64,000 nucleotides of DNA from Jaapia argillacea MUCL 33604 (lineage: Eukaryota; Basidiomycota; Agaricomycetes; Jaapiales; Jaapiaceae): contig KL197709.1 in the NCBI GenBank assembly GCA_000697665.1, forward strand, positions 1,239,791 to 1,303,790, given 5' to 3'. How positions within the stretch are numbered: position 1 is the first letter of the stretch; each line of letters begins with the position of its first letter. Made by a program: the position numbers and the translations under genes. Below the pieces are notes generated by a model that saw only the letters and a program-made list of their open reading frames with translations, searched no databases and had not been told where the DNA came from. Below, in pieces: positions 51,791 through 61,695 of this stretch.

Positions 51791-53371
51791 TCACTTTTTC
51801 GGCCTTCGTTTCTCGTTGGGATTTCTTCGTCCGTAACCTATCGTTGGCATGTCCCCACTACCCTTCATGCTCCTGCCCTTCCCTCCTGCTCCGACGCTGA
51901 GTATTTCCGGGACCCAGTCGGGATCCATCCAACTCCCAATAGTAGCGCCTCCTTCAGCACCTCTAGCAATGGCACTGTTGAACATCTTCTTCTCATCCCG
52001 CTCTCTCTTCGCATCCGCACGTTTCTTCGCCCGCTGGTATTCGATTTGGTCCTCACGAAGAATGAGACCCTCCCCATTACCCTTTTTGGCGGAACCAGGT
52101 TTGGGTGATGGGATCGAGTATATCGTCCCGCGTGTTTTATATTGAAAGTTCTTCTTGAGGTGAACTTGCATGGCTGGTACATTTGGTGCCGCATCGGGGG
52201 ATGCGACGGTCACTGATGCTCGAAGCAGTGTTGGGTTACCACAGCTGGGACAGAACTTTTTCGTGGAGTCTTTGCATATTCTACGCGATCCAATTATGTT
52301 AAGATTTCCACCGGTGATAAGGATCGCGAGACTCACTTGAAGCAGGCATGACATCTGAGCACCCAAGTCTTCACTTTTTGAATTCTCTTCCCCTCGACGC
52401 CGACTAAATTCAGCCCCATCTGCAGCAGGACATTTTGCATCGCAAAATCTGCAGTCATACAACCTGCGTCGAGTGACTCTTCCTGCCCTAATTTTGACCC
52501 CGCGTTCGGAAGAAGATCGAGGTGGCGGGACTTGTGAAGGGCGACATTTTCCGGCGTGATCCATTCCCCTTCTCCGTCATCTTCGTCCGAAGGGTCATCG
52601 AATAGAGGATCTGTGGTCGGTGTACTAGACTCGGGTCCCTCATCGTGTATGGGAGCTGAATCACTTGAAGATGGATCGTCTATCCGTTGTAGCTCCACAT
52701 GCAAAGGCTCGCGCGCCTCTTCAAGATCCTCCCCGTCGTCTAACTCTGGTTCCTCGCCATCCTCTCCTTGTACGGCTTCGGTAGGAGGAACTTCAGAATC
52801 TGATATTAAAGGAGTTGAAGTCGTATTGAGATCAATCTGCTCCATACTCTCTGCGACCTCCGAGATTGGGTCATCTTGAGCGGGTTGGGGGGCCTCTGCT
52901 GCTAAAGCAGGCTCTGGCACCTTGATCTACTGGGACATCGACAATTCGTCAAAGACAGACGACATCCCACCCACGATGAAGCTTACCTCCTCTGCTTTTG
53001 CTCGTTGGTGGAGGGCATAAGTCAAGGCGAGTACGCACAAGTCCGCATGAGACAAGACACCATAATCTCCGGTCTTCTTGGCAAACTGGATAACTGAGAA
53101 ACAACCAGACTCAGGATATAATCCACAGAGAAATACGATCCAACATACCTTGTGCCAAAGATGCGGCATCGGGAGACTGTACATCAATTCGCACTCCTGC
53201 ATTCAACCCCAACCGCTCAAAATGTTCTCTGGCTTTCTGATCCTTCAACTCACTCAAAACTTGTGGAACTGTATAGTATGTCTCTGCCAAACCCCGCAGC
53301 GGCGACAAGGACAGTAATGGTCCAGCATCGAGGACGAGATTTTTGCAAGCGAATTTCTTATCTGAAGTCAT
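51791..53371 (-). CDS. NOB1: pre-rRNA endonuclease Nob1
   Basis: PIN-domain nuclease that cuts at site D to mature 18S rRNA in cytosolic pre-40S particles. The model is complement join(51791..52280,52337..52926,52987..53093,53149..53371), 469 residues. The PIN domain comes first: NLVLDAGPLLSLSPLRGLAE (metal-binding Asp15), VLSELKDQKAREHF, and DYGVLSHADLCVLALTYAL with the second catalytic acid. A roughly 130-residue acidic, disordered insert follows. Then comes GEWITPENVALHKS, the zinc ribbon (RCHACFK ... CPSCGN), NFQYKTRGTIYSIPSPKPG, and the C-terminal WMDPDWVPEIL and GYGRRNPNEKRRPKK. All catalytic acids expected of the PIN core are present. It is divergent from LEU2. Confidence 0.96.
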
Positions 53372-53524
53372 GATGGTAGCAGAAATTGAGCGTGGGAGTT
53401 CCAGAACTGATCTCTTTCGTCAGATCCGTCAGAGATTGCTCTTCGGCCGATATCGATATGAACCCCAATCCTCGACCCCGAGTCTCTTCACCTTTCATTT
53501 ATTCTCTGCATCACCTCCGGTATC

Positions 53525-54875
<1,351 letters not shown>

Positions 54876-55124: not shown

Positions 55125-56597
55125 ATGTTCTTCTGCCTGCAAATTGTCTTGGCCTTTGCTCTTCTGAGCGTAGTCTCTTGGGCCCAGTTTCATCCATCTG
55201 AACCCGCCAAGTACCAGAGACTTCCGTCACTGAGAGACCAAGCCCGCATTCTGGACGAGTGGAAAGATGAGAGAGTTGCAAGGATTCCCCAGTTACTCGA
55301 AAGATACGGTGTCGATGCTTGGTTGGTCCGTATCTTACAAGGTTCAATGGGTCTGATACTGATCTCAGCTACTGTAGATGAGCCAGCGGGAACATGCAGA
55401 AGACCCCATTTGGTGGTCAATCAAGAATGCTACCGATTTCGCTGCACATCGCCGTACAGTGGTTCTGTTCCTCGCAAACCCACTACCACAACAAACCAAC
55501 CCAGTTGTATGGGTAGACAACACGGGAAAGGTATGGGGCGAATTGCTCGACATTCTCGAGGCCTCCGATCCTCAAAAAATCGTGCTTAATGTCGACCATA
55601 ATATCGCCTTTTCTGGCGGCCTTCATGTCGGAGAGTTTGAAGTCCTCCAGGCAGAACTCGGCAGCAAGTGGAAGGAGCGGTTCGTGAATCAACCCATGAT
55701 TGGGATTGAGTATGTGGCAACCCGAGTCCGGTCACAGCTGGAGTATTACAGAATGTTACAAGAAACCACTTGGGCAATGATTGCGGAAGCGTTCAGTGAA
55801 GCGGTTATCAAGCCCGAGATTACAACAACGGAAGTAAGTATCCCAACAAATCCCCCTGTGGCGAGGCTGATCTTGGTTCAGGATGTCCAATGGTGATTCC
55901 GAGAGAAGATGCAGGAGCTCAACGTCTCTACTTAGAATCATCCTCGTGTTTCCGTCGTCACCCCAGAGTCGTTTCCTGGCTGGCAGGGGACCCAGGACGT
56001 GATCCAAGAAGGCGACATCCTTCATGTCGATTATGGAATCACGGCTATGGGAATGAATACCGATGTCCAACATATGGCCTATGTGTTACGCGCTGGGGAG
56101 ACAGATGCCCCGCAGGGCCTGAAGGATGGCATCCGAAAGGCAAACCGCATGCAAGATATTATTTTGAGCGAAATGCGAGCCGGGAGATCCGGTAACGCAG
56201 TCCTTCAAGGATCGTTGGCTCAGATGAAGGTGGAGGGTTTGGAGGGACAGATCTACTGCCATCCCATTGGAGACTACGGGCATGCACCTGGCGCGGTCAT
56301 GGGCAGGTCCCCTTATCCCATCCACTTCATAATATTAACTCAAGTCCTGCAGGTTTCACAAATCTTCCAGTTAATGTACCCGTTCTGGGAGATCTGCCTC
56401 TCCTACCGGAGACATACTATAGCATCGAGCTCTATGCCTACAGCTTTGTGCCAGAGAGGAATGAAACTCTGAGATTTAGACTGGAAGAAAATGCGTATTG
56501 GGTGGATGAGGAGAGAGGGTGGGAGTTCGTATATGGAAGACAGGAGATGCTTCATCTGGTTGGGAAGACACCTCCTTCATTGCTTCTTCAGAACTAA
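55125..56597 (+). pseudogene. M24-family metallopeptidase (Xaa-Pro aminopeptidase-like) gene with two in-frame stops
   Basis: The layout is join(55125..55325,55378..55833,55882..56302,56353..56597), about 440 codons. It begins with a signal peptide (FFCLQIVLAFALLSVVSWAQ), then DAWLMSQREHAEDPIWW and an N-terminal creatinase-like half. The C-terminal pita-bread half carries all five metal ligands: HVDYGI, MNTDVQH, HPIGDYGHAPG, YSIELYA and RLEENAYW. Exon 3 reads DVQW-stop-FREKMQELNVST-stop-NHPRVSV. The TGA at 55894-55896 and the TAG at 55933-55935 both sit where relatives have Trp (TGG), so each is one G-to-A change away. No intron I can draw removes both and keeps frame. The intron after exon 3 has a GC donor (gcaggt). 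Everything downstream still looks well conserved, so loss would be recent. Sequencing error or unusual decoding remain alternatives. Confidence 0.8.
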
Positions 56598-60186: not shown

Positions 60187-61695
60187 TCAAGGATCCGAGG
60201 CGTCCATGGGGAACAATGGTAACATATGACCCATACGCAAAACCTTTGTTCGCAAATACTTTTCCAAGTCGTCGCCGTGTGCGGCGCCTCCTCCGATTAG
60301 TGTAGCCCCCGCTCTTCGTTCCTTCTCATGCAACATCTCCTCATCGTCACCAGCGACAGCCACCTCTCCCAGCAACGAATGAACAGGGTGCTGTTTTCGT
60401 TTTTGCCAACTCCTAGGTATCATCGGTACCCTCTCAACGATCCTCAAGCCCTCCTTCTCCAACGCAGCAACTTTATCGGGGTTATTCGTAAGAAGCCGTA
60501 CGCCCTCACCGCATTCGGTCCCGAGTCCCAGATCTCGTAAGATGGCGGCGGCAATCTCGTACCCTCGCTCATCCGCCTTATGGCCGAGCATCAGGTTCGC
60601 AGTGACCGTGTCATGGCCAAGATCCTGCAGATTGTATGCTCGGATCTTGGATAACAGGCCGATGCCACGACCCTCTTGGCGCAAGTAGACGACTGCTCCT
60701 CGTCCTGGGATAGTGATAGGCCGCGACGAACCAGAAGAGGGTGATGGGAGAGTGATGGATTGCGAAATTAGACGGATGGCCTCGTCAAGTTGCTCACCAC
60801 AATCACATCGCATGCTACCGATGGTTTCACCGGTGAAACATTCGGAGTGAATGCGAATGAGTGGGGATGGAATCGAGTCGTCCGCCATACCCGGAAGGTT
60901 TTCTGAAGGTAACGATGCAGCCTGTGATGTCGCTGATAGTCGGCCAACATAAGCCCCCCGTGTGATACGATCCATCTCCGTTTCTGTCGCACTCCACACG
61001 GCATCCAATGATCGGCTGCGAATGGGGGGTGCATAGCGCGACTGCTCATCGGAAAATTGAGCAGGGTCGACAACTATCGCAAGGTGCTCTTTATTATCAC
61101 GGGTGTTGTGGTATAAGTGGAGGAACGCAGGTCCATGAGGGGTGGGTATACGGGTACGGGCCATGCATTTGACCTCTAGGTCCGATATTTCCGACGAAGT
61201 CGATGATGACGCAAGGAGGGCATCGGTCAAAGTAGACGAACGAGTTAGCGCAGGAGTGGGCTGCGCCGAGATTGACGGTGTACGCTGCTTTTTCGGGGCT
61301 GGCAAGGGTAAATTGTCTGCTGATTTGAGGGGGTCGACAGCTTCGCGCCGAGAATCATTCTCCTTGGTCTCCGAGCCCAAACGCTTGCTCCTGGGAGCTT
61401 GGCGACTAACGTAGGTGAGTTTCTTCCTCTCCTGCTTTACCCCCACATCCTCTCCCTGCCACCTCGTCCAGTCCCACGAGCCCTGAGCCTGAGGGTCCAT
61501 CACGCCAGGAAAAAAATCATGGGTGTAATGGTTCCTGGTGACGTGAGGACCCGATGAAGTTGCGGCAGCTAGCAAAAGAGGGTCCAACTCTGCATCACGA
61601 CGCTTGATGATTGTTTTAGCACGAGGAGGAGTGGGTGCCGTCAGAAAATTGAGTAAGGAGAGATCGTCGTGGAGGGTTTCGATGCCGATAGTCAT
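60187..61695 (-). CDS. RIB1: GTP cyclohydrolase II
   Basis: Opens GTP to 2,5-diamino-6-ribosylamino-pyrimidinone phosphate, the first step of riboflavin synthesis. It is one uninterrupted frame of 502 codons, unusual among its intron-rich neighbours. The catalytic domain is C-terminal: the zinc site uses three Cys in [20 protein letters not shown], then [40 protein letters not shown] and [17 protein letters not shown]. The N-terminal 190 residues contain Ser/Arg-rich disorder and a conserved-looking block ([19 protein letters not shown]) found in fungal Rib1 proteins. VPS17 lies upstream at 296 bp in the same direction. No riboswitch-like structure was recognised in the leader. Confidence 0.95.

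Follow-up and report, generated by a model that had tools for sequence, protein, structure and literature searches.

Organization of the locus

The window, by which we mean the entire stretch of 64,000 nucleotides that was analysed (contig KL197709.1, positions 1,239,791 to 1,303,790, assembly GCA_000697665.1), derives from the basidiomycete Jaapia argillacea MUCL 33604 (order Jaapiales). It carries an M24-like peptidase gene, the exons, introns and unusual codons of which are collected in Table 1. A NOB1 Zn-ribbon gene and a gene of the isopropylmalate/isocitrate dehydrogenase family (51794-54848) are its upstream neighbours, and a GTP cyclohydrolase II gene (60190-61695) lies downstream. A protein search of the assembly, the counts of which are lower bounds, revealed no second copy of the M24-like gene. 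In a search with the Pfam M24 profile, 11 matches were obtained at other places, and the gene in the window was absent from them.

Table 1. Features of the M24-like peptidase gene, in window coordinates
Feature	Position	Strand	Remarks
M24-like peptidase gene, 440 codons, three introns	55125..56597	+
Exon 1	55125..55325	+	Hydrophobic N-terminus, likely signal peptide; N-terminal helix in structure models
Intron 1, 52 nt, GTCCGT...CTGAT...TAG	55326..55377	+	Boundaries identical in P0001
Exon 2	55378..55833	+	
Intron A, 48 nt, GTAAGT...CTGAT...CAG	55834..55881	+	Position common to relatives; some relatives retain it
Intron of the public model, 102 nt, removing 18 codons, the two stops included, without a frame change	55834..55935	+	Exactly the splice of P0001
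Exon 3, conserved coding frame with both stops	55882..56302	+	Frame and relatives
Coding segment absent from P0001, 54 nt	55882..55935	+	Most of a helix (P0002 residues 223-236) and a loop
TGA stop, codon 224	55894..55896	+	Trp column in relatives
TAG stop, codon 237	55933..55935	+	Trp column in relatives; AG is the P0001 acceptor
Intron C, 50 nt, GC-AG reading	56303..56352	+	Would give the family reading MGFTN; public model has 56307-56344, 38 nt
Exon 4, C-terminal end and natural stop	56353..56597	+	Frame and relatives

Two stops at conserved tryptophan positions

Exon 3 opens with GAT GTC CAA TGG, the TGA follows immediately, and the TAG comes later in the same frame. The first-pass annotation had drawn attention to these two nonsense codons and had stated that related M24 proteins carry tryptophan at both places; both statements hold. 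We aligned the window reading with 120 listed database hits, and P0001, the protein predicted from this very locus (see below), was excluded from the column counts. Among the remaining 119 listed hits, the column of the first stop has W in 115, F in three, and a gap in one, while that of the second has W in 118 and a gap in one. Both columns (W229 and W242 in P0002 from Obba rivulosa) are invariant Trp in a selection of 47 sequences, which includes none of the three rows with F. In the reading frame of the relatives, the Jaapia gene thus carries a disabling change, i.e., two in-frame stops. Given intron C as GC-AG, the coding exons contain no further stop. The six-frame match has one TGA and two TAGs, and the additional TAG closes intron 1 (55375-55377).

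The proposed M24 relationship is borne out by the Pfam scores of intact relatives and by the modelled fold. P0002 and P0046 score 39.3 and 33.4 bits, respectively, above the PF00557 cut-off of 23 bits, and the M24 (pita-bread) fold is clear in the structure model of P0002. Among known proteins, the M24 peptidases with the prolidase/aminopeptidase P fold stand nearest, and the Jaapia copy differs in being interrupted by stops. Scores just under the cut-off were obtained for P0001 (22.5) and for the piece of exon 3 that follows the second stop (22.9), and P0081 from Armillaria ostoyae matches no Pfam family. The columns D274, D285, H360, E392, and E411 (P0002 numbering), candidates for the five M24 metal ligands D, D, H, E, and E, are invariant in the 47 sequences and present in the frame of the window. 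A profile of the 47-sequence alignment matched no PDB chain at E 0.001, and the three proteins scanned against the NCBIfam models had no match. These two results place the fungal group far from characterised enzymes, and the group itself looks uncharacterised. A literature search covering titles and the openings of abstracts found no paper treating the Jaapia M24-like gene.

The public gene model and the splicing of intron A

The best database match, P0001 (JAAARDRAFT_52322, 426 residues), is from the same strain and is the exact translation of the window when spliced with introns 55326-55377, 55834-55935, and 56307-56344. In P0001, intron A is lengthened to 102 nt instead of 48 nt, with the AG of the second stop as acceptor. 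The model thereby loses 18 residues and, according to structure modelling, most of the helix formed by residues 223-236 (P0002 numbering) of the M24 fold. A spliced transcript skipping both codons in frame had been named as grounds for giving up the nonsense reading; such a splice does exist in the public annotation, but the signals discussed below argue against it and most of a helix would be lost.

To score these signals, training introns were selected within 200 kb of contig KL197709.1 by open-frame support and a CTRAY motif, which yielded 101 introns from the real and 38 from the reversed sequence. Since the introns are inferred from open frames, these two counts imply an impure training set, about a third of which may be chance. 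With this set, the donor of the 48-nt intron A falls at the 66th and its acceptor at the 71st percentile of the 101 training introns. The donor of intron 1, in comparison, scores under every training donor, where the training donors were picked as GTRNGY. The sole CTRAY/YTNAY motif within the 102 nt has its A at 55870, 11 nt before the end of the 48-nt intron. In the 76 core training introns the distance from motif to acceptor is 6-30 nt, whereas in the stretched intron it is 65 nt and leads past six nearer AGs. These features argue against the 102-nt intron, and from the sequence P0001 is best read as a gene model that lays a stretched intron over the stops.

The alternative is that the second stop created a working 3′ splice site, such that removal of the 54 nt yields a functional peptidase shorter by 18 residues. 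We consider this scenario quite unlikely. P0001 is precisely the 55834-55935 splice, and the acceptor CTCTACTTAG scores like real acceptors (61st training percentile, with a score higher than that of about 94% of genomic AGs). The AlphaFold model of the skipped protein is confident, with a mean pLDDT of 88.3, although this value is not a test of stability. Moreover, the Armillaria ostoyae protein ARMOST_05376 (P0081) is without exactly the same 18 residues as P0001. The model of this related protein has two further insertions, and P0046 from Armillaria solidipes has the full 18-residue segment. Against the scenario stand the distant motif and the nearer AGs, the Pfam results for P0001 and P0081 (see above), and the finding that the segment is absent only from these two among 144 compared proteins; four fragments start inside it. 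In addition, a change of intron boundaries is described as rare in Cryptococcus (PMC2740785).

Other splices were considered as well. When intron length was limited to 40-250 nt and the acceptor position to about 56100, 19 in-frame splices from a GT donor bypassed both stops. As judged from the 15 of the 19 that were listed, these combine the donor of intron A with the TAG or a later acceptor, or depend on weak-looking and mostly unscored donors, and would give proteins of 385-423 residues; none was preferred to the 48-nt intron. A splice from the GT at 55893 loses the frame and meets an immediate stop, and its donor score is low under a matrix whose training donors were all GTRNGY. An extra intron behind the second Trp codon, by which the 54 nt would become a separate small exon, was also rejected for the read-through lineages. 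Ten database proteins in which intron A, intron C, or both are translated (P0083, P0089, P0125, P0126, and P0138-P0143) are unbroken across this boundary, and none of the 120 listed hits has an insertion there. The sequences thus argue against such an intron in the read-through lineages, Armillaria excepted. In the database models P0061, P0080, P0083, P0089, P0125, P0126, and P0138, intron A is kept as coding sequence, indicating that retained introns are recurrent in the database.

Intron C

The 38-nt intron C of P0001 (56307-56344) adds four residues to the protein. Of the other rows, 111 of 119 have no insertion at this place, and the remaining eight have different insertions that look like retained intron. 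Judging by these inserted peptides, the unspliced readings of the relatives suggest that intron C interrupts a glycine codon behind its first base (G|GT). Read at that position, the Jaapia intron seems to have a GC donor and to restore the family sequence MGFTN. From the GT donor at 56307, two acceptors were tried, and only that at 56344 leaves the frame open. Introns of 40 nt or shorter make up 2 of the 101 training introns and 3 of the 38 from the reversed control. The GC donor itself scores low, with the matrix trained on GTRNGY donors only. A count of GCARGT donors with open-frame support gave 87 in the real and 77 in the reversed sequence, without a clear excess; the GC-AG reading is therefore neither supported nor excluded by this count. 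The GC donor may represent a third lesion or belong to a working GC-AG intron. Together, the 38-nt intron C and the stretched intron A look as if the predictor had rescued the frame twice.

Constraint, age, and chance

Apart from the stops, the frame is intact, as had been noted earlier. In a set of 79 relatives (P0002-P0080), 113 columns show a conservation of 97% or more, and the window departs at a single one of these, which is about the median; 31 of the 79 relatives depart by as large a fraction or a larger one. With a threshold of 100% the departures number 1 of 62 (8 of the 79 as much or more, median 0), and with a threshold of 90% they number 5 of 178 (42 of the 79 as much or more). 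There is consequently no sign of relaxed constraint at the conserved columns (1 of 113 changed), and a pseudogene or null reading fits only if the loss is very recent. With an assumed transition weight of 3, neutral change since the loss is bounded at about 27 point changes, or 2.1% of the coding sequence. Under the same assumption, two neutral nonsense hits would be expected together with about 7.8 missense hits at conserved columns, and the probability of one or none is 0.11. The intact remainder of the gene leaves three possibilities for the stops, namely that they are very young, are not real, or are not fatal. It supports a loss that is very recent or polymorphic, as suggested earlier, or only apparent.

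It had also been argued that two different stop types, both at Trp codons, are more striking than a random error. This argument loses much of its force, since half of the transition-type nonsense opportunities in the gene lie in Trp codons (30 of 60, transitions only, both stop columns counted as Trp). The probability that both hits fall on Trp is about 0.25, and that of two nonsense hits within 38 nt is 0.052. The skippable 18-codon segment holds 9 of the 60 opportunities, and that both stops lie inside it is a point in favour of a functional intron extension. The placement of the stops and the type of codon are only mildly unusual; the unusual part is the intactness of the remaining gene.

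This intactness bears on the possibility of a base-level error in sequencing or assembly, or of a collapsed dikaryon consensus, with an intact copy in the living strain. We regard such an error as unlikely, and it ranks first among the rival explanations, ahead of a working stretched intron, with editing last. It would account for a remaining gene under normal constraint. Likewise, P0001 is the sole Jaapia protein among the listed hits, no locus of a second haplotype was found, and the next relative after P0001 is 68-69% identical. But two stop-making substitutions 38 nt apart, together with an unusual GC donor, are in our judgement much to ask of a consensus error. Moreover, the window contains no N, and in the isopropylmalate dehydrogenase gene next to the locus the matched exons are free of internal stops.

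RNA editing

A further explanation is that both stops are read as Trp at some stage by RNA editing of the kind that corrects premature stops. The model case is PUK1 of the ascomycete Fusarium graminearum, in which two stops are edited to Trp and were originally annotated as an intron, according to a 2020 review (PMC7306014). The stops in PUK1 are in tandem and UAG to UGG editing is described as proven (PMC7306014, PMC11156358). The Jaapia gene resembles PUK1 in having two in-frame stops at Trp positions with an intron of the public model laid over them; it differs in that its stops are UGA and UAG, are separated by 12 codons, and occur in a basidiomycete. After A-to-I editing both stops would read Trp, and the remainder of the gene is conserved. 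The 2020 review also mentions A-to-I and other kinds of editing reported in Polyporales (PMC7306014), but a 2024 review cites a re-analysis that found no A-to-I editing in the reported basidiomycetes (PMC11156358). Fungal A-to-I editing favours U before the A and corrects UAG. The second Jaapia stop is indeed UAG, but the first is UGA, in which the A is preceded by G.

RNA folding was considered in this context. The adenosine of the TAG has a predicted unpaired probability of 1.00 with 60- and 100-nt flanks, the two largest windows, a value in line with editing; overall it ranges from 0.26 to 1.00. That of the TGA goes from 0.92 down to 0.00 with the size of the fold window. As the predicted folds shift with window size, loop preference was rejected as evidence for editing. 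Collectively, the earlier suggestion of repair after transcription retains the position of the stops at Trp columns, but the G before the A in one stop and the disputed status of basidiomycete A-to-I editing (PMC11156358) make editing a far-fetched explanation here. Reading of both stops as Trp by editing would, if true, provide a basidiomycete counterpart of PUK1. A paper on Coprinopsis reportedly deals with alternative splicing together with RNA editing.

Interpretation

The stops, the frame, the Trp of the relatives, the single locus found, the identity of P0001, and the intact remainder of the gene are directly established. We propose that the Jaapia M24-type gene is probably a very recent null allele or a young pseudogene, hidden by its gene model. 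According to this proposal, the locus would be the only copy found of a gene for a secreted-type M24 peptidase with the aminopeptidase P/prolidase fold. The conserved 48-nt intron A would be spliced as in the relatives, and translation would end at codon 224, giving a 223-residue product without the metal-binding half. Alternatively, the message may be removed by nonsense-mediated decay. The stops would actually occur in the strain, as a fixed or a polymorphic allele.

For the null or pseudogene reading we counted the Trp columns, the signals of intron A, the loss of the helix, the Pfam score below the cut-off, the oddity of intron C, the intact rest of the gene, and that no second copy was found. 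Counted against it were the possibility that the stops are base errors and the scarcity of missense change, which opposes a prolonged life as a pseudogene. The good sequence of the distal acceptor, the Armillaria ostoyae model without the same 18 residues, and the impure intron training set were also counted against it. As in strain-level nonsense alleles and young pseudogenes, premature stops interrupt a gene that is conserved in its other parts and was found in one copy; there is no difference in principle, and the Jaapia gene is without excess missense change. That the stops are instead kept in a working gene we judge to be improbable, be it as a helix-less isoform made through the TAG acceptor, with Armillaria ostoyae as an independent parallel, or through reading of the stops as Trp by editing.

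As a null allele, the Jaapia gene would be an ordinary event. It would also illustrate clearly that premature stops can be hidden in a eukaryotic gene model by means of a stretched intron, whereby a protein without a core helix enters the databases. The locus offers a small, clean test case for distinguishing a dead gene from an altered intron and from RNA repair, and the same 18-residue gap in the Armillaria model extends this interest to two genera.
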